A stretch of 64,000 nucleotides of DNA from Deltaproteobacteria bacterium (GTDB taxonomy: Bacteria; Myxococcota_A; UBA9160; PR03), in NCBI GenBank assembly GCA_035063765.1, contig JAPSFT010000006.1, forward strand, positions 1 through 64,000, in the 5' to 3' direction. This document shows positions 6,810 to 21,025 of this stretch, piece by piece. Position numbers and translations under genes: made by a program. Below the pieces are notes generated by a model. That model saw only the letters and a program-made list of their open reading frames with translations. It made no database searches and was not told the origin of the DNA. Numbering within the stretch: position 1 is the first letter of the stretch; each line of letters opens with the position of its first letter.

Positions 6810-7841
6810 ATGTCCGCCGGCCCGCGCACCTGGCTGCTGCTCGGCGAGAAGCCCGGCGACAACGCGCAGGCCCGCGTGCTCGCCGACGCGCTCGGCTGGC
6901 CCTACGAGACGCGCACGCTGCGCATGCAGCCCGAGTGGGTGCTCGGCAAGCCGCGCGTGCGGCCCTCGCTCGCGCACCTCGACCTCGCGCGCTCGGATCG
7001 CCTCGAGCCGCCCTGGCCCGCGCTGCTGATCACGGTCGGGCGGCGGCTGTCGTCGGCGGCGCTCTGGGTGGAGCGCCAGTCGCGCGGGGCGACGAAGCTG
7101 GTCCTGATCGGCAAGCCGCGCCGCCGGCTCGGGCGCTTCGCGCTCGTCGTCGCGGGCGCGCAGTACCGGATCGGAGCGCGGCGCAACGTCGTGCGGATCG
7201 GGCTCCCGCTGCTCCGGATCGACCCGGACACGGTGGCTGCAGCGGCCAGCGCGTGGCGCGGCCGGCTCGCGCCGGCGCCGCGGCCGCTGCTCGCGCTCCT
7301 CGTCGGCGGACCCACCAAGGCGCTGCGCCTCGACGCCGCGGTGGCGCGCGCGATCGCCGTACGCGCAGCAGCCGACAGCGCGCGCGCGGGGGGATCCCTC
7401 CACGTCTGCACGAGCCGGCGCACGCCGCCCGCCGTCGTCGAGGCGCTCGCCGAAGCCCTGCCCGGCGGCACGCCGCTCTACCGCTGGCGGCCCGACGACC
7501 CCGACAACCCCTACCTGGCGCTCCTCGGCCTGGCCGATCGCTTTGCGGTGACGGCGGACAGCGTGACGATGATGGTCGAGGTCGCCCGCCTCGGCCGGCC
7601 GCTCGCGATCGCGCGCCTGCCCGCACGCCGCTCGCGCCTGCGCGCGCTCACCCGCTCGCGCGACCTCGATGCCGTGGCACGCCTCCTGCTCGCGCGCGGG
7701 CTCGCGCTCGAGCTCGGACAGGCTTGGCATCCACCCGCCCGCGCGCTCGACGACGACGTGTCGGTGGTGGCCGCACGCGTGCGCGAGCTCTTCCCGCCCC
7801 CCGCGGGAGCCGTACCCGAGGCGACCCCGCCGGCGAAGTGA
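6810..7841 (+). CDS. ELM1-like (DUF1022) putative GT-B protein, copy 1
   Basis: 343 residues from ATG 6810. It begins TWLLLGEKPGDNAQARVLAD, the N-terminal hallmark of the group named after plant mitochondrial fission factor ELM1. Later it has LITVGRRLSSAALWVERQ, LLVGGPTKALRLD, LYRWRPDDPDNPYLALLGLAD and VTADSVTMMVEVARLGRPLAI. In bacteria these proteins sit in lipopolysaccharide and glycan loci, and their fold resembles GT-B glycosyltransferases; no reaction has been established from sequence alone. It is divergent from the GT-A-like gene (147-base intergenic region) and followed by a sulfotransferase. A longer paralog lies at 11884-13083. Confidence 0.72.
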   Translation: MSAGPRTWLLLGEKPGDNAQARVLADALGWPYETRTLRMQPEWVLGKPRVRPSLAHLDLARSDRLEPPWPALLITVGRRLSSAALWVERQSRGATKLVLIGKPRRRLGRFALVVAGAQYRIGARRNVVRIGLPLLRIDPDTVAAAASAWRGRLAPAPRPLLALLVGGPTKALRLDAAVARAIAVRAAADSARAGGSLHVCTSRRTPPAVVEALAEALPGGTPLYRWRPDDPDNPYLALLGLADRFAVTADSVTMMVEVARLGRPLAIARLPARRSRLRALTRSRDLDAVARLLLARGLALELGQAWHPPARALDDDVSVVAARVRELFPPPAGAVPEATPPAK

Positions 7842-7926
7842 TACGTTGCGAGCCTGCCCGTCGCCGGCCACGTCCCTCCGCGACCGGGCCCGTCCCCCCG
7901 CAGACCGTCCGACCGTACAGGAAGCG

Positions 7927-8877
7927 ATGCCCATGTTCGCGATCGTCCGGAGCGTCCTCCGCAACGCAGGGATGAAGGCCCAGCGCTTCGCCGTTCTCGC
8001 GCTGGCGTCACCTCTCCCGGCCGAGCGCCGCCGGAGCCTCGAGCGCCGGCTGCGCGGCCGCGAGCAGGTGCGCAAGCTCGAGGCCGCCGACGTCGTCATC
8101 GTGTCGTACGGCAAGGCCGGCCGCACCTGGCTACGGGTCCTGCTCTCGCGCCTCTACCAGCTCCTCTACGGCCTGCCGGAGGTGCTGCTCGGCTTCGACA
8201 ACCTCCATGCCCGCGACCGCCGGGTCCCGAAGGTCTTCTTCACGCACGACAACTACGTGCAGGACTACACCGGCCACCGCGACAAGCGCGCGTTCCGCGG
8301 CAAGAAGGTGATCCTGCTGGTGCGCAACCCGCAGGACGTGGCCGTCTCCCAGTACTTCCAGTGGAAGTTCCGCATGCGCCGCGCGAAGAAGGCGCTCAAC
8401 GACTACCCGGAGCACGGCCAGGACCTCTCGACCTACGACTTCGTGATGCGCCCCGCCTCGGGGATCGCGAAGATCATCGACTGGATGAACGGCTGGGCCG
8501 CCGAGGTGGGGCAGGTCCCCTCGCTGCTGCTCGTCCGCTACGAGGACCTGCGCGCCGACACCGTGGGCGAGCTGCGCCGGATCGCCACGTTCATGGGTGC
8601 GCCCGCCGACGAGGCGGCGCTCCAGGGGGCGGTCGAGTACGCCTCGATCGAGAACATGCGCAAGCTCGAGACGCAGCGGAAGTTCTGGCTCTCGGGCGGC
8701 CGCATGACCCCGCGCGACCGCGACGACCCGAACTCCTACAAGGTCCGCCGCGCCAAGGTCGGGGGCTACCGCGACTACTTCGACGACGAGCAGGTGGCCC
8801 GCATCGACGAGCAGGTGCGGGAGAAGCTCTCGCCGGTCTTCGGCTACGGCGCGGGGCGGGAGGGCGCCGGCGCTTGA
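7927..8877 (+). CDS. sulfotransferase
   Basis: 316 residues. ATG 7927 is preceded closely by AGGAAG; ATG 7933 is an alternative. The 5'-phosphosulfate-binding loop of PAPS-dependent sulfotransferases is visible as IVSYGKAGRTWLR near residue 60. The 3'-phosphate site is seen as LLVRNPQDVAVSQYFQW near residue 135, and LLVRYEDLR and a C-terminal YKVRRAKVGGYRDYF also match. The enzyme moves sulfate from PAPS to a hydroxyl of a sugar or lipid. Here it implies a sulfated surface glycan (inference). Its stop overlaps the TTG start of the next gene. Confidence 0.87.
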   Translation: MPMFAIVRSVLRNAGMKAQRFAVLALASPLPAERRRSLERRLRGREQVRKLEAADVVIVSYGKAGRTWLRVLLSRLYQLLYGLPEVLLGFDNLHARDRRVPKVFFTHDNYVQDYTGHRDKRAFRGKKVILLVRNPQDVAVSQYFQWKFRMRRAKKALNDYPEHGQDLSTYDFVMRPASGIAKIIDWMNGWAAEVGQVPSLLLVRYEDLRADTVGELRRIATFMGAPADEAALQGAVEYASIENMRKLETQRKFWLSGGRMTPRDRDDPNSYKVRRAKVGGYRDYFDDEQVARIDEQVREKLSPVFGYGAGREGAGA

Positions 8878-11883: not shown

Positions 11884-13083
11884 TCAGCCCGCGTGGGCGG
11901 GCGGCGGCGGGAGCACGACGGGCTCGAAGAGCGCGCGCACGCGCGCCGCCGCGCGCTCGATGTCGCGCAGGGGCGGCGGCTGCTCGGCGGGAGCGCCCTC
12001 GCCGAGCCAGGCAGCGCGGCCGGAGGCAACGAGCAGCTTCTGCACGATCCGGATGTCGCGGGTCCAGCGCGTCGGCCCCCAGCGCATGCCGATCCGGTAG
12101 ATCACGGCGTTCAGGTGGGCGCGGTCGAGGCAGTGCCACCAGGGAGGGCCCGCCTCGTCGCGCTCACGCATGGAGAAGCGACCTTCCCCGGTGTCGAAGA
12201 GGAACACCGGGCGGCCGGTCACGCAGGCCTCGGTCATCATCGAGACGCTGTCGCCGGTCACGACGAGCTGGTCGGCCAGGCCGAGGAAGCCGAAGTAGGG
12301 GTTGTCGGGATCGCCGGGTCGCCAGCGGTACAGGAACGAGGGGACCGACACGCCGCGGAACAGCGCGTCGATGGCCTCGCGCGGGGTCCGCGCGCTGGTG
12401 GTGACGAGCAGCGAGCCGCCCGCCCGCGCGGCCAGCGCGCTCGCGTCGCGCGCGAGCCGCGCGCCCGAGCGCGCGTCGAAGGGGTACGGGCCGCTCGGCC
12501 CCCCGGCGAGGACCACGACGCGCGGCCGCGGCAGGTGCGCGAGGCGCTCTTCCCACAGGGCGGCGGCCTCCTGCAAACGCTCGGGCGTCACGCGGTGGAG
12601 CGGCGTCTCGTTGTGCAGGACGTTGGCGAGGCGCGGGAGCCGGTACTGGGGCGTCGTCACCACCAGATCCCAGCTCTCCAGGGCGGCCCAGGGCCGTCCC
12701 ACGTGCACGAGCCGCATCGGCGCATCGGAGCGGTTGCGGATCCAGCGCGCGATCGGCTCGTTGCGGCGCCCCGCCGAGATGACCAGATCCGGCCACGGCG
12801 GCCCGAGCGCGCTCGAACGCTCCTTCACCACACCCGCCAGTGTCGATGCGAAGGGCAGGTTCACGAGCCGCTCCCACGGCTGGTAGACGAAGCGCTTGAT
12901 CTCGAAGGGCCAGCCGATCGCCTCGCCGAGCGCCTCGACCTGCGAGTTGTCGCCGGCGCGGTGGCCCATCAGGAGCCAGACACGGGGTGCCTGCCCCGGC
13001 CGGGAGCGGTCACCGGGCGAGCGCTCGCCGGGCGGGTGTTGCGCGGACGGCCGGCCCGTCCGGTGGACGGCGGGCTCAGGCAC
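11884..13083 (-). CDS. ELM1-like (DUF1022) putative GT-B protein, copy 2
   Basis: 399 residues. GTG 13083 was chosen because GGAGGGAGG lies about six bases upstream; a further in-frame start near 13182 lacks such a site. Family blocks are VWLLMGHRAGDNSQVEAL, LVISAGRRNEPIARWI, VVVLAGGPSGPYPFD, FLYRWRPGDPDNPYFGF and VTGDSVSMMTEACVTGRPVF, each matching a block of copy 1 (6810-7841). Compared with copy 1 it has an extra C-terminal stretch containing GPPWWHCLDRAHLN and a long proline-rich N-terminus. Function as for copy 1: a glycosyltransferase-like role is inferred, not shown. Confidence 0.72.
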   Translation of the reverse strand: MPEPAVHRTGRPSAQHPPGERSPGDRSRPGQAPRVWLLMGHRAGDNSQVEALGEAIGWPFEIKRFVYQPWERLVNLPFASTLAGVVKERSSALGPPWPDLVISAGRRNEPIARWIRNRSDAPMRLVHVGRPWAALESWDLVVTTPQYRLPRLANVLHNETPLHRVTPERLQEAAALWEERLAHLPRPRVVVLAGGPSGPYPFDARSGARLARDASALAARAGGSLLVTTSARTPREAIDALFRGVSVPSFLYRWRPGDPDNPYFGFLGLADQLVVTGDSVSMMTEACVTGRPVFLFDTGEGRFSMRERDEAGPPWWHCLDRAHLNAVIYRIGMRWGPTRWTRDIRIVQKLLVASGRAAWLGEGAPAEQPPPLRDIERAAARVRALFEPVVLPPPPAHAG

Positions 13084-13203
13084 GGGTGGCCTCCCTCCGG
13101 CACGCGACCCGGCGGGGGGAAGGGGCGCGGCACACCGCGGCATCTTCCAAGCCCCTCCGCTCGCTGTCAAGAACGCTGGCACGCGGAGACAGGGCGGCGC
13201 GCC

Positions 13204-15655: not shown

Positions 15656-16639
15656 TCAGCGGAGCACGCCCTGGCGCAGCAGGCGGATCAGGATCGGCAC
15701 GGCGTGGAGGACAGGGCGACGGCGCTGGCGCTCGCTCAGCTCGACGCGCACGCCGCTGTGCCGCTCGACCTTGAAGATCGCGTAGTCCACCCAGCCGTCG
15801 AAGGTGGCCGGCGCCTTCACGAGGCCGGCGACGGCAAAGGCCTTCGCGAGCGGCCGGCGCAGGCGCCAGCGGCGGCGCGCACGCGCGCGCCAGGCCGGCT
15901 CCGAGGCCACCGCGAGCTCGCGCCCGCCGGCGAGCAGCCGCAGCCGGCCGCGCGCCTCGAGCTCCCGCAGCGCCGCCACCGCGACCCGGTCGAAGCGCTC
16001 GCCCTGCGCCGCGTAGAGCGCGTCGATGGTCTCGGCCTTCTCGCCGCGCAGCTCCGCGCGATAGGTCTCGCGAAACGCGGTCGTCCACAGCTCGGCCGGC
16101 TCGAAGCGCTGCACCGGGCCGCCGCCCGGAAGCCAGGTGAGCATGCGGTCGACCGCGGTCAGGGTCGCGCTGCGCACGGCCGCGAGCGCCTCGCCGCGCG
16201 CGGCCTCGTCGCGCACCCACACGAGCCGCGAGGGCTGGCAGAAGCGCGACCAGATGCGCGCGTCCACCCGCCGCCCGCGCGCGGCGCGCAGGAAGTGCCG
16301 GCGCGAGATCAGCGCGTACTTCGCGCGCAGCCGCTCGCCCCCATGATCGATCTCGACGTAGAAGACGTTGGGCGGGAGGAGCCAGCCGAGCAGCGCCTGG
16401 AGCCGCGAGCGGTGCGCGGCGCGGTAGCCGTCCACCAGCACGTAGAAGTCGAGCACCCCCTCGGTCGTGCCCCGGCGCAGGCAGGAGCCGTAGAACAGGA
16501 CGGCCGACACACCGTCATGTCGCTTGCGGACGGCGCCGGCCATCCGCGCGACCGGCTCGGGGACCGGAGCGTGGAGCTCGGCCGCCAGCAGCTCGTCGAG
16601 CGCGGCCGCCCCCGCTGCCACCACGCCTGCCTCAGGCAC
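15656..16639 (-). CDS. Tam41-like CDP-diacylglycerol synthase candidate (nucleotidyltransferase fold)
   Basis: 327 residues from GTG 16639, overlapping the diacylglycerol kinase stop by eight bases. The nucleotidyltransferase signature is VLFYGSCLRRG followed by VLDFYVLVDGY (GS...DF/D pattern, near residues 48-72). Further motifs parallel mitochondrial Tam41: PPNVFYVEIDHGGERLRAKY (compare the Tam41 AGVYFN...VKYGVV block), the W..F.QPSRLVW stretch, then AFRETYRAELRGEKAETI where Tam41 has SYAGDIR..GGE. Tam41 makes CDP-diacylglycerol from phosphatidate and CTP. The neighbour makes phosphatidate, which supports the call. The assignment is by motif memory, not alignment; another nucleotidyltransferase activity is possible. 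Confidence 0.55.
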   Translation of the reverse strand: MPEAGVVAAGAAALDELLAAELHAPVPEPVARMAGAVRKRHDGVSAVLFYGSCLRRGTTEGVLDFYVLVDGYRAAHRSRLQALLGWLLPPNVFYVEIDHGGERLRAKYALISRRHFLRAARGRRVDARIWSRFCQPSRLVWVRDEAARGEALAAVRSATLTAVDRMLTWLPGGGPVQRFEPAELWTTAFRETYRAELRGEKAETIDALYAAQGERFDRVAVAALRELEARGRLRLLAGGRELAVASEPAWRARARRRWRLRRPLAKAFAVAGLVKAPATFDGWVDYAIFKVERHSGVRVELSERQRRRPVLHAVPILIRLLRQGVLR

Positions 16640-17582
16640 GCAGGAAGCGCACGCCCTCGACGGCGCCGACGCGGACCACCCGGTCCGGGATCGGGTCGTA
16701 GAGCTCGCCGTCGAGGATGATGCCGGCGTCGAGCTGGACGGCCAGCTCGTGCACGTTGCGGCTGTGGTAGCCGTGTTCGGGGCGCGCGTGGGCGGGCGGG
16801 CGGCCGCGCAGGATGCCGGGCGCGGCGCTGCCGAAGCGGTACGCGCCGCCCTCGATGAGCGTGACCCGCAGCGGCGCCGGCTCCCGGCCCCAGAACGGGC
16901 GCATGCGCAGGAACAGACGCTCGAGGGTGCTGGTCATCGCGAGCAGCTGCTCGCGCGGCTCGAGCGCCTCGCCGTCGAGCGAGATGCGCATCTTGTCGGG
17001 CGTGAGCAGGCCGCGCATGCCGCCCACGACGGTGCGCGCGATCAGCACGCCGGTCACGACGCCGGCGCCGAACACGCCGCGCGCCTTGCCCTCGGGAAAG
17101 ACGTGGTGGACGAGGTCGACGGCCCGGTGCAGGACGCCGAAGCCCAGGAACATCCCGTAGTGGACGCCCTCGGCCGTCTCGACCCGCAGCACCGGCCGGG
17201 TCCGGACGTGCTCGCCGAGGCGGCCGGCACGGTCCGCCGCGATCAGCTCGGCGAGTCCGCGCACCGGATCCTTGCGGGCGCCCAGGTCCATCGCGGTCAT
17301 GTTCGTGCGCCCACCCCGGATCGGAGCGATCCAGGGCCGCCAGTCGCTCGCGGGGTTGCCGAGCAGATGGGTGAGCGCGTGCTGGATCGTGCCGTCGCCC
17401 CCGTTCAGCACCAGGATCTCGACGCCGGCGCGAGCGAAGTCGCGCAGCACGAGCGGCACGGCCGCGTCGCTCCCGGTCTCGGCGTGCAGGACGTCGGGAT
17501 GGCGCGCCAGGAAGCGCAGCACCTTGTCGACCTTCGAATCGCGCTGGCCGGCGCGCAGGTTGGAGAGGACGCCGATGCGCAT
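16632..17582 (-). CDS. diacylglycerol kinase-family lipid kinase
   Basis: 316 residues from ATG 17582. It has the DAGK catalytic domain: VLSNLRAG at the start, the nucleotide loop ILVLNGGDGTIQHAL near residue 60 and RGGRTNMTAMDLG (the substrate-loop equivalent of the G(T)xN motif). The C-terminal beta domain carries DGE motifs (SLDGEAL, ILDGELYDP). The family phosphorylates diacylglycerol or related lipids with ATP at the membrane. It overlaps the Tam41-like gene by eight bases, so a two-step diacylglycerol to phosphatidate to CDP-diacylglycerol route is suggested. The upstream gene ends only two bases before this start. Confidence 0.85.
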   Translation of the reverse strand: MRIGVLSNLRAGQRDSKVDKVLRFLARHPDVLHAETGSDAAVPLVLRDFARAGVEILVLNGGDGTIQHALTHLLGNPASDWRPWIAPIRGGRTNMTAMDLGARKDPVRGLAELIAADRAGRLGEHVRTRPVLRVETAEGVHYGMFLGFGVLHRAVDLVHHVFPEGKARGVFGAGVVTGVLIARTVVGGMRGLLTPDKMRISLDGEALEPREQLLAMTSTLERLFLRMRPFWGREPAPLRVTLIEGGAYRFGSAAPGILRGRPPAHARPEHGYHSRNVHELAVQLDAGIILDGELYDPIPDRVVRVGAVEGVRFLRA

Positions 17583-17584
17583 CG

Positions 17585-18706
17585 TCAGTTCCCTCCCGAG
17601 CCGGGTTCCAAGGCGGCCGCCGCAGGCACCCCGGCGCCCCCTGGCGGTTGCGGATTGGTCCAGGCGAGCTTCGCGAGCGCGGGGCCGCGCAGTGAGCGCG
17701 AGCCGCTCCGGAGCTCGAAGGAGGGCGTGCTCCAGGCGAGGCGCGGGCGCGTGCGCAGCTCGAGGGCGGCGCGCAGCGGCGCCGGGAGCCGGGCGAAGGG
17801 CTCGAAGACCCCGAGCGGCTCCCCGAACTCCGCTCGGCCGGCCAGGCCCGGCGCCGTGAAGCGCAGCCACGCGAGGTCTGGATAGCCGGCGGCGCCTGCT
17901 CGCCAGCCGAGCTCGCTCCCGCTCGGGGCGCCCTGGAAGACCGTGCGCCCGTCGCGCCGGACGAGCAGCCAGGCTTCGCGCGCTCCACTCGGTGTCTCGC
18001 TCTCGCGGAAGTAGAGGCCGAGCCCGGGCTCCATCGCGAAGAGCTCGACGGCGCGGCGCAGGCAGTCCACCTCGAGCCCGGGCGTCCAGCGGTGGGTGAG
18101 CGCGGCGAGCCCGCGCAGCGCGACCGGAGCCGCCGCGCGCCCGGGACGGAAGCTTCCCGTGGCGGAGCCGGCCACCTCGAGCACGTCGAAGTCGCAGCCG
18201 GGGCTCACATCCCGCGCCGGCCAGGCCGGCGCGCCCGCGCCTTCGATCGCGAGATCGATCCCGAGCTCGTTCTTGTCGACGACGAAGCGGCGCGTGGGAC
18301 CTGCCTGGTCGAGGACGATCGACTGGAGGTCGAGACGCCGGCCGTTGTCTTCGAGCCGCCAGCCGCCTTCGCGCTCGCTGCGGGAGAAGCGATGAACCTT
18401 GCCGCCCGGCTCGACGAGCTCCCCCAGCACGACCGCCGTGCGCCCACCGGGCCCCGTGTTGGCGAGCGCGGCCGTGGCCACGAGCAGGTGCCCCGATTCG
18501 AAGCGCGCCACGAGGTCCCAGTACTCGCCGGCCAGCGCCCCCGCCGGAAGCCGGGCCCCCGGATCGCCCCGCTCGACGCTCGCGTCGCTCCGGGCGCCGA
18601 ACGCGAGCCCGCCGCCGATCGTCGCGAGCGACGCCGCCGCCACCACGGCCACCCGGCGGCGGAGCGCGGACGAGAGGGAGCGCGTGCGCAGCGGCGCTGC
18701 CGTCAG
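17585..18706 (-). CDS. predicted exported protein, unknown function
   Basis: About 373 residues if translated from the CTG near 18706; GTG 18652 is another option. No ATG with a ribosome site is seen before the divergent gene. RRRVAVVAAASLATIGGGLA is a signal-peptide or anchor-like segment. The remainder is rich in short beta-like stretches (GHLLVATAALANTGPGGRTA, RRFVVDKNELGIDLAIEG, GCDFDVLEVAGSATGSF). The order of these resembles CrtC/Svf1 lipocalin-like proteins, but I see no diagnostic residue, so I do not assign a function. It ends two bases before the lipid-kinase gene and may deliver or bind a lipid. Confidence 0.55.
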   Translation of the reverse strand: MTAAPLRTRSLSSALRRRVAVVAAASLATIGGGLAFGARSDASVERGDPGARLPAGALAGEYWDLVARFESGHLLVATAALANTGPGGRTAVVLGELVEPGGKVHRFSRSEREGGWRLEDNGRRLDLQSIVLDQAGPTRRFVVDKNELGIDLAIEGAGAPAWPARDVSPGCDFDVLEVAGSATGSFRPGRAAAPVALRGLAALTHRWTPGLEVDCLRRAVELFAMEPGLGLYFRESETPSGAREAWLLVRRDGRTVFQGAPSGSELGWRAGAAGYPDLAWLRFTAPGLAGRAEFGEPLGVFEPFARLPAPLRAALELRTRPRLAWSTPSFELRSGSRSLRGPALAKLAWTNPQPPGGAGVPAAAALEPGSGGN

Positions 18707-18877
18707 GGGACTTGCGCTCCTCTGGTCGAGGTCGGATCGGGCCTCCCGGACCGTCGGGGGTCGGGCATGGCCGGCGCCTCCTCGGATCGCCGCTGGAGGG
18801 AGCGGCTCTGGAACCGGCAGCGACCGGATCGGGGGCCGGGTGTTCCCGTGCCGGTGAGACCGTATCGTAACGCCTCC

Positions 18878-19942
18878 ATGACCGACCGCTTCCAGTCCGG
18901 GGCTGCGCCCGGAGCTGCCTGTCCCGCCGGAGGCGGCTTCCTCACGCTCGCCCATCTCTCGGATCTCCACGCGACCGATGTCCGTCTTGGATCCCCGCGG
19001 GATCTGCTGAGCAAGCGCGCGCTCGGCTGGCTCTCATGGCGCCACAAGCGGCGCAAGGAGCACCTCCAGGCGGTGCTCGAAGCCCTGCTCGAGGATCTCC
19101 GCGCGCACCGCCCGGACCACGTCGCCGTGACGGGCGACCTGACGCACCTGGGCCTCCCGGGGGAGATCGAGGCGGCCGTCGCCTGGCTCGAGCGAATCGG
19201 GCCGCCCGAGCGTGTGGCGATCGTGCCCGGCAACCACGACGCCTACGCCGGGGCCGCCGGTGCCGAGCGCTGGGCACCCTGGCGCGCCTACCTGGGCGAC
19301 GGCGCGGGGCGACAGGCGCCGCGTCCGGACCCGGCCGGCGACCCGGCCACGGCGGGCTTTCCCTGGGTGCGCCGGATCGGCTCCTCGCTCGCGCTCCTCG
19401 GGGTCTCCTCGGCGCGGCCCACCGCGCCGCTGCTTGCCACCGGAGTGATCGGCCAGGCGCAGCGCGCCCGCCTCGAGCAGCAGCTCGACGAGCTCGGGGC
19501 CGAAGGACGTACCCGCGTCGTGCTGATGCACCATCCGCCGATCCCGGCGGGCCAGTCGCGCCGCCGCCAGCTCGACGACGCGGAGGCGTTGCGGGCCCTG
19601 CTCGCGCGGGCGGGCGCCGAGCTGATCCTGCACGGCCACACCCACGAGAGTCATCTCGGCGAGCTGCCCGGGCCCCACGGCGCGATCCCCGTGATCGGCG
19701 TCCCTTCGTCGTCGTCGATCGGGAAGCGTCCGGCGCGGCGTGCGCGCTACCACCTCTATCGCATCGAGCCCCGGCGCGACCCGGCCGGGGCGCCGGCGTG
19801 CCGGCTCTCCTGGCAGGTGCGGGGCTACGACGCCGGGAGCGGGCGATTCGTCGCGGAGGACGGCCCGCGGGCCTGGACGCCGGGCGCTCGATCGCAGCCG
19901 GCCGGCGGGGAGCCGGCGAGCGGGCCGGCCGGTCCGCCCTGA
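18878..19942 (+). CDS. calcineurin-like metallophosphoesterase
   Basis: 354 residues from ATG 18878. All five metallophosphoesterase blocks are visible: LAHLSDLHA (DxH), VTGDLTHLG (GD), IVPGNHDAY (GNHD), LMHHPPIP (H) and LHGHTHESH (GHTH). The DLLSKRALGWLSWRHKRR insertion after block I matches a group often annotated as UDP-2,3-diacylglucosamine or 3',5'-cyclic nucleotide phosphodiesterase relatives, but substrate cannot be assigned. It is cytoplasmic, as no signal peptide is seen. It is divergent from the exported protein gene and convergent with the nucleotidyltransferase gene. Confidence 0.87.
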   Translation: MTDRFQSGAAPGAACPAGGGFLTLAHLSDLHATDVRLGSPRDLLSKRALGWLSWRHKRRKEHLQAVLEALLEDLRAHRPDHVAVTGDLTHLGLPGEIEAAVAWLERIGPPERVAIVPGNHDAYAGAAGAERWAPWRAYLGDGAGRQAPRPDPAGDPATAGFPWVRRIGSSLALLGVSSARPTAPLLATGVIGQAQRARLEQQLDELGAEGRTRVVLMHHPPIPAGQSRRRQLDDAEALRALLARAGAELILHGHTHESHLGELPGPHGAIPVIGVPSSSSIGKRPARRARYHLYRIEPRRDPAGAPACRLSWQVRGYDAGSGRFVAEDGPRAWTPGARSQPAGGEPASGPAGPP

Positions 19943-19967: not shown

Positions 19968-20768
19968 TCAGGACGCGGTCCGCCGGGCGGCCAGGACCCG
20001 GGCAGCGGCCTCGAGGTCGGCGGCGCCGTCGACGTCGATCGCGCACTCGGCAAAGGGCATGCGGATCGCGGCGGCCCGCACGCCCATCGCGGCCGAGACA
20101 CGGGCCACCGCGGCGTCGAGCGGGAGGCGGCCGAGCGCGAAGCGCGCGAGAGTGACCGGGCCGAAGAGCGCGGCCATCCGCCACGGTCGCTTGCGGACGA
20201 CCTCGGCGCGGACCCAGAAGCGCGCCGCCTCGGCGGCGCGGGGCGTCCGGAAGCAGAAGAGGTTCGCCCCCGTGACGGCGTCGTCGCCGAGCGGGATGAA
20301 GGTCCGGCGCACGCGCGGAAACCGGGCCCGGAACAGGGAGGCCTCGACCACCGCCACCGCGACGTCGGCGCCGGTGGCGTCGGCCGCCCCCAGGAAATGC
20401 CGCACCATGGCGGGCGTCAGCAGCGGGTGATCCGCGGTGGTGACGAGCACGGCACCGCCGCCGGACTCGCGCACGAGGAAGTCGTGGACGCTCGCGGCGG
20501 GCGAGCCCGCGCTCGCGTGGTGGCGCAGCCAGCCCTCCGCCACCCAGGCGCGCAGCACCGGCGTCGCCTCGAGCAGGGCCGCATCGCCGGCGCTCACGAA
20601 GGTGGGGCGCGTGCCGACCGCCTCGCGCAGGCACGCGAGCACGCGCTCGATCATCGGCGTGCCGTCGACCTCGACGAGCGCCTTGGTGGCGGTGGGCAGG
20701 CCCATCTCGCCCTCGCCCGCGCGCCGGCCGGCGAGCACCAGGACGCGCGCGATGCCCGGATCGGTCAT
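19968..20768 (-). CDS. MobA-like NTP transferase domain protein
   Basis: 266 residues from ATG 20768. The Rossmann-like nucleotidyltransferase signature is VLVLAGRRAG followed by TKALVEVDGTPMIERVL, with the catalytic acidic site in VLVTTADHPLLTP. It fits the NTP_transf_3 group (MobA, IspD-like and sugar nucleotidyltransferases). The C-terminal 90 residues (WVRAEVVRKRPWRMAALFG) are outside the core. The transferred nucleotide and acceptor are unknown. Convergent to the metallophosphoesterase gene; 257 bases separate its start from dnaE2 on the other strand. Confidence 0.75.
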   Translation of the reverse strand: MTDPGIARVLVLAGRRAGEGEMGLPTATKALVEVDGTPMIERVLACLREAVGTRPTFVSAGDAALLEATPVLRAWVAEGWLRHHASAGSPAASVHDFLVRESGGGAVLVTTADHPLLTPAMVRHFLGAADATGADVAVAVVEASLFRARFPRVRRTFIPLGDDAVTGANLFCFRTPRAAEAARFWVRAEVVRKRPWRMAALFGPVTLARFALGRLPLDAAVARVSAAMGVRAAAIRMPFAECAIDVDGAADLEAAARVLAARRTAS

Positions 20769-21025
20769 GGGTGGCCCTACCTGCCCCCGGCGCCAAGCCG
20801 GATCTGGGCAGGACCCCGGGGGCTCCGGCACCGGCCGGAACGGGGCTCCCACCCGCTGGAACGATGCAGCGTGCGGACCCGGCCCGATCACCGGCCCTCG
20901 CGACGCACCGTGCGGCGCAGGATACCGCCCGCGGGGCCCGCCGGACCGCTCCCGGTCCTCGTTCCTCCTCCACCGCGACCGCTTCCCATCCTCGCTGTCT
21001 TCCCCTCCGGCTTGCTCCAAGGCGA

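Follow-up and report, generated by a model that had tools for sequence, protein, structure and literature searches.

The locus described here raises the question of which lipid a Tam41-like nucleotidyltransferase serves when its gene overlaps that of a lipid kinase. The window, by which we mean the whole 64,000-nucleotide stretch of DNA analysed, contains such a pair (Table 1), and the original prediction read it as a Tam41-like CDP-diacylglycerol (CDP-DAG) synthase and a diacylglycerol kinase forming a compact salvage route to phospholipids. The pair itself is as predicted, with a 327-codon gene that overlaps by 8 bp the end of the kinase gene, which runs from an ATG at 17582 to a stop at 16632, and with the kinase assigned to DAGK_cat by Pfam (31.1 bits, cut-off 23.6). 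The nucleotidyltransferase GS...DF pattern attributed to the 327-residue protein is also present, reading FYGSCLR...GVLDFY. Eight residues, G51, S52, D64, K107, R132, Y193, E196 and R198, are shared by all 81 aligned relatives, part of which were retrieved with a pattern containing the GS...D motif of G51, S52 and D64.

Table 1 Features in and around the gene pair (window coordinates).
Feature	Position	Strand	Remarks
Tam41-fold nucleotidyltransferase gene, CpgC-type clade	15656..16639	minus	327 aa, GTG start
Lipid kinase gene, DAGK_cat, CpgB (ceramide kinase)-like	16632..17582	minus	PF00781
Fused LptF-LptG lipid-export permease, 765 aa	13204..15501	minus	Pfam; each half matches its own NCBIfam equivalog
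Conserved partner, tandem-lipocalin (AttH-like) fold, N-terminal signal-like helix	17585..18820	minus	no Pfam family
Calcineurin-like phosphoesterase	18092..19942	plus	true start probably downstream of 18092; homologue in at least 59/80 best related loci
MobA/CofC-like nucleotidyltransferase (NTP_transf_3)	19968..21020	minus	homologue in at least 57/80 best related loci
"Mitochondrial fission ELM1" gene (PF06258)	6810..7841	plus	
"Mitochondrial fission ELM1" gene (PF06258)	11884..13182	minus	
Sulfotransferase gene	7669..8877		

The proposed Tam41-like identity is upheld by the fold and by the profile matches of relatives, but not by a profile match of the window protein itself. Searched as a sequence against Pfam, NCBIfam and the PDB, the protein gives nothing significant; at E ≤ 1 it matches no Pfam family, PF09139 (the Mmp37/Tam41 profile) included, its own genome has no PF09139 match, and 28 aligned relatives miss this profile as well. 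A PF09139 scan of 377 genomes of the phylum gave 0 matches but detected 0 of 14 controls, and is thus no evidence of absence. The same profile does match 10 of the 44 members of a wider alignment (A2, the window protein with 43 of the 80 related loci described below), with a best E of 8.3e-10. When ten relatives were scanned singly, five scored above the cut-off, one below it, and four had no match, and a PF09139 search of the Desulforhabdus genome returned a match at the position of the window gene's homologue (locus L097). In the opposite direction, a 13-row profile that takes in divergent members has Schizosaccharomyces pombe Tam41 as its best match in the PDB (E 0.0012), pairing KYAV with KYGV, W...RF.P with W...GRF.KP, and TY..ELR with SY..DIR, while the YGS...D block, with its single catalytic-type D, is aligned solely as a sub-threshold segment; profiles of 29 rows (A1, with L027 left out) and 44 rows did not recover Tam41 from the PDB. 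As PF09139 is missed by the window protein and matched by some of its relatives, we place the protein in a related branch and outside the curated family. The resemblance to Tam41 is real but deep, and the gene represents a divergent branch related to Tam41.

The structural comparison is clearer. An AlphaFold (AF2) model of the 327-aa protein, built from 29 aligned sequences, has a pLDDT of 89.9 and a pTM of 0.88. A Foldseek search of 350,542 PDB chains places S. pombe Tam41 in all of the top four positions (E 7e-9 to 5e-8), and in VIA Tam41 occupies ranks 1–3, led by Firmicutes Tam41 with CTP-Mg (7ecd; Z 17.7, rmsd 3.1 over 228 residues, spanning 24–280 of the model) and including the S. pombe enzyme (6ig4/6ig2; Z 16.3). 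The next family, the aminoglycoside nucleotidyltransferases, reaches Z 9.1 over 113 residues. Structure superposition, proposed at the outset as a check, makes Tam41 the best match, at Z 16.3–17.7 versus 9.1 for the next family. The model contains both parts of the Tam41 fold, an NTase domain and a second (winged-helix) domain; the domain structure of Tam41 is described in PMC7018664. A viral fold library returned general nucleotidyltransferases only. Compared with Tam41/TAMM41 (PF09139; 7ecd, 6ig2, 6ig4), the whole fold is alike over about 225 residues and the blocks YGS...D, KY, R..P and Y.[DE].R are common to both, although identity in the structural alignment is 14–15%. Unlike Tam41, the window protein lacks a PF09139 match, is partnered with a CpgB-type kinase, and is encoded in a genome with a separate CdsA. 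Its lipid substrate is probably unlike that of Tam41, given the kinase partner and the separate CdsA.

The type of the kinase was assessed with the CpgB-type kinase of Dongia as the query against the genome. The window kinase scores 133 bits, and none of the other four PF00781 places exceeds 24 bits, from which we take the overlapping kinase to be the CpgB-type one; by best match, it appears nearer to the CpgB type than the other DAGK_cat kinases of the genome, two of which lie above the cut-off elsewhere. Whether the genome has cdsA had been left as a further check, and a CdsA-type enzyme is indeed encoded on contig C43 (PF01148, 187.5 bits). The reaction type that we propose for the window protein, between CTP and a lipid phosphate, is also that of CdsA, which PMC7018664 describes as an enzyme integral to the membrane and without relation to Tam41. 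Since the genome carries CdsA, we rejected the possibility that the pair stands in for a missing one. A true Tam41-like CDP-DAG synthase, supplied by a kinase that phosphorylates diacylglycerol and acting in a second or salvage phospholipid route, would be consistent with the common fold, with the Pfam assignment of the kinase to DAGK_cat, and with the statement in PMC11646218, citing Kimura 2022, that bacterial Tam41 makes CDP-DAG. We nevertheless regard such a synthase as unlikely, for CdsA is already encoded in the genome, as are two further DAGK_cat kinases, neither of which is picked out by the Dongia CpgB-type query that finds the window kinase, and the neighbours are genes of phosphosphingolipid clusters. 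With a CpgB/ceramide-diphosphoglycerate-type kinase in such surroundings, the compact salvage route of the original prediction is not borne out.

The pair recurs across several phyla. Relatives are encoded in 533 stretches of the genome collection, of which the best 80 were kept, so that the counts lean to close relatives; the neighbour counts are lower bounds because some loci are short. In 75 of these 80 loci the kinase gene immediately precedes the homologue on the same strand, and in 60 of the 75 the homologue starts within 20 bp of the kinase stop (the start nearest the kinase stop being chosen). A homologue is found in 51 of 377 genomes of the window's phylum and in 42 of 385 genomes of Dongia's class, and this recurrence, together with the adjoining kinase in 75 of 80 loci, argues that the pair is more than chance. 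Besides the phosphoesterase and the nucleotidyltransferase (Table 1), the neighbours in the best 80 loci include a CDP-alcohol transferase (at least 52), LptF/LptG (at least 39), Spt (at least 30), a CerR-like reductase (at least 27) and an acyl-AMP ligase (at least 22). In Dongia deserti the homologue has the kinase gene on one side and that of serine palmitoyltransferase (NF047599, 657.6 bits) on the other, past which lie genes for an ACP, an epimerase-family reductase and an acyl-AMP ligase, and the locus also carries CDP-alcohol transferases and LptF/LptG.

This Dongia gene order matches the one given in PMC11324152 for the ceramide-diphosphoglycerate cluster of Caulobacter, namely CC_1160 (ceramide kinase CpgB), CC_1161 (CpgC) and CC_1162 (spt). 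A second proxy comes from a published C. crescentus cpgB reverse primer, 22 of whose 24 bases match at the 3′ end of the kinase gene in an alphaproteobacterial locus where the window gene's homologue adjoins the kinase with a 4-bp overlap; the forward cpgB primer has no match at this locus. Caulobacter crescentus CpgC (CC_1161, CCNA_01219) likewise lies directly downstream of a CpgB-type kinase, and its neighbourhood and the window both contain a phosphoesterase, a nucleotidyltransferase and LptF/LptG. The window differs from Caulobacter in having LptF and LptG fused and a lipocalin-fold protein encoded between the phosphoesterase and the kinase, in lacking the CDP-alcohol transferase, and in that its genome places the Spt-like gene elsewhere. 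For the NTP_transf_3 neighbour, a PDB search made with a view to naming it CpgD found no match. The window protein is best read as the likely counterpart of Caulobacter CpgC, a reading drawn from gene order and the proxy loci.

With the fold, the conserved Tam41-type residues, the kinase type by best match and the gene order as direct observations, we propose that the window gene probably encodes a Tam41-fold CTP:ceramide-1-phosphate cytidylyltransferase of the CpgC clade, its substrate being deduced, and not a phosphatidate-salvage enzyme. The ceramide-kinase (CpgB) type of the kinase makes ceramide 1-phosphate the most likely substrate. In the proposed scheme the upstream-encoded kinase would make ceramide 1-phosphate, the Tam41-fold enzyme would move CMP from CTP, the presumed donor, to the lipid 1-phosphate and so yield CDP-ceramide, and an anionic head group would then be built on this intermediate; the finished lipid may leave through the adjoining LptFG-type permease. 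The enzyme itself is predicted to be a peripheral-membrane protein, comprising the NTase domain, the second helical or winged-helix-like domain, and basic C-terminal helices. More broadly, the chances are about even that this branch of Tam41-fold enzymes is a dedicated CDP-ceramide synthase, and that bacterial phosphosphingolipids are built on CDP-activated ceramide much as phospholipids are on CDP-DAG.

Published work on Caulobacter bears on this scheme. Part of it was already known, as PMC11324152 reports for CC_1161 an InterPro domain suggestive of CDP-DAG synthase and puts forward an NDP-activated ceramide. New here are the fold-level placement, the spread across phyla, and a concrete reaction to test. 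Papers up to 2026 (PMC12275187, PMC13228409) still give CpgC an "unidentified mechanism"; our literature search found no bacterial paper on CDP-ceramide, and CpgC and Tam41 appeared together in none of the matches listed. The published CpgC scheme has phosphoglycerate added directly to ceramide 1-phosphate with no CDP-ceramide intermediate, which would agree with the requirement in Caulobacter for cpgB and cpgC in making ceramide phosphoglycerate (CPG), with cpgA and cpgD needed only for CPG2 (PMC12275187, PMC11324152). A weak point of our proposal is that CpgA, a CDP-alcohol transferase, is needed for CPG2 and not for CPG, so that Caulobacter is left with no known gene for the conversion of CDP-ceramide to CPG. 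Direct addition nonetheless seems quite improbable to us, as the window protein has the fold and conserved residues of a CTP-dependent transferase and PMC11324152 itself calls such an addition energetically not very favourable. Placing the CpgC branch in the Tam41 fold predicts CTP as the donor, CDP-ceramide as the product and a set of residues to mutate, which makes this sphingolipid step testable.

Within the window we saw neither spt, another ceramide gene nor a CDP-alcohol transferase. An Spt-like gene is present on contig C9, with NF047600 as its best family (542.9 bits, below the cut-off of 640), and a separate BioF in the genome passes its own cut-off. A search of the genome for relatives of the related loci's CDP-alcohol transferase came back empty, with a query that had no positive control. 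On contig C8 (L122:9298-10680, minus strand) a 461-aa protein carries a CDP-alcohol phosphatidyltransferase domain, distant from the kinase-adjoining ones of other genomes, and could be the missing transferase. Across the window's order a strong match to the Spt-like protein occurs in 40 of 48 genomes that carry the gene versus 16 of 30 that do not, a count of the 78 order genomes among the matches listed in which two with weaker matches (G280 and G026) were scored as lacking Spt. The co-occurrence is modest (Fisher one-sided p 0.005, with kinship uncorrected and the threshold set after the scores were seen). That the pair acts in the window's lineage on some other lipid alcohol, such as a sphingoid base, an alkyl alcohol or a glycolipid, would agree with the lack of spt and of a CDP-alcohol transferase in the window and with the 8 of 48 order genomes in which the gene occurs without a strong Spt match. 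We give this little credence, seeing that the CPG2-type kinase, phosphoesterase, nucleotidyltransferase and permease genes are kept and that an Spt-like gene lies elsewhere in the genome.

The gene at 17585–18820 offers a further candidate component of such a pathway. Its product occurs in at least 29 of the 80 best related loci, and its model (pLDDT 86) adopts the AttH/CghA/Fsa2 tandem-lipocalin fold, with a VIA Z of about 26. Yeast Svf1, a protein with two lipocalin domains, is described in PMC10583516 as ceramide-binding, and by this analogy a role of the window protein as a bacterial sphingolipid carrier would be worth testing.

The Tam41-fold branch is widespread, with members in Myxococcota, Binatota, Thermodesulfobacteriota, Nitrospirota and Alphaproteobacteria. 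In a phylogeny of 81 sequences, none of them a eukaryotic Tam41, there are two halves, one of Myxococcota and Binatota, which includes the window protein, and the other of alphaproteobacteria, Thermodesulfobacteriota and Nitrospirota. Any explanation of where mitochondrial Tam41 came from should take into account how common Tam41-fold enzymes are in several bacterial phyla, Alphaproteobacteria among them. In four alphaproteobacterial genomes (G867, G714, G829 and G968) the match to the profile comes in two parts, as would be expected of a strongly diverged or shortened middle segment. Homologues also occur on plasmids, in 17 records of which 13 are from Roseomonas, and are mostly annotated as hypothetical protein. 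Two genes annotated as "mitochondrial fission ELM1" flank the cluster in the window, with a sulfotransferase gene alongside (Table 1), and ELM1 genes are likewise found in 12 of the 80 best related loci and in the alphaproteobacterial loci L189 and L194.
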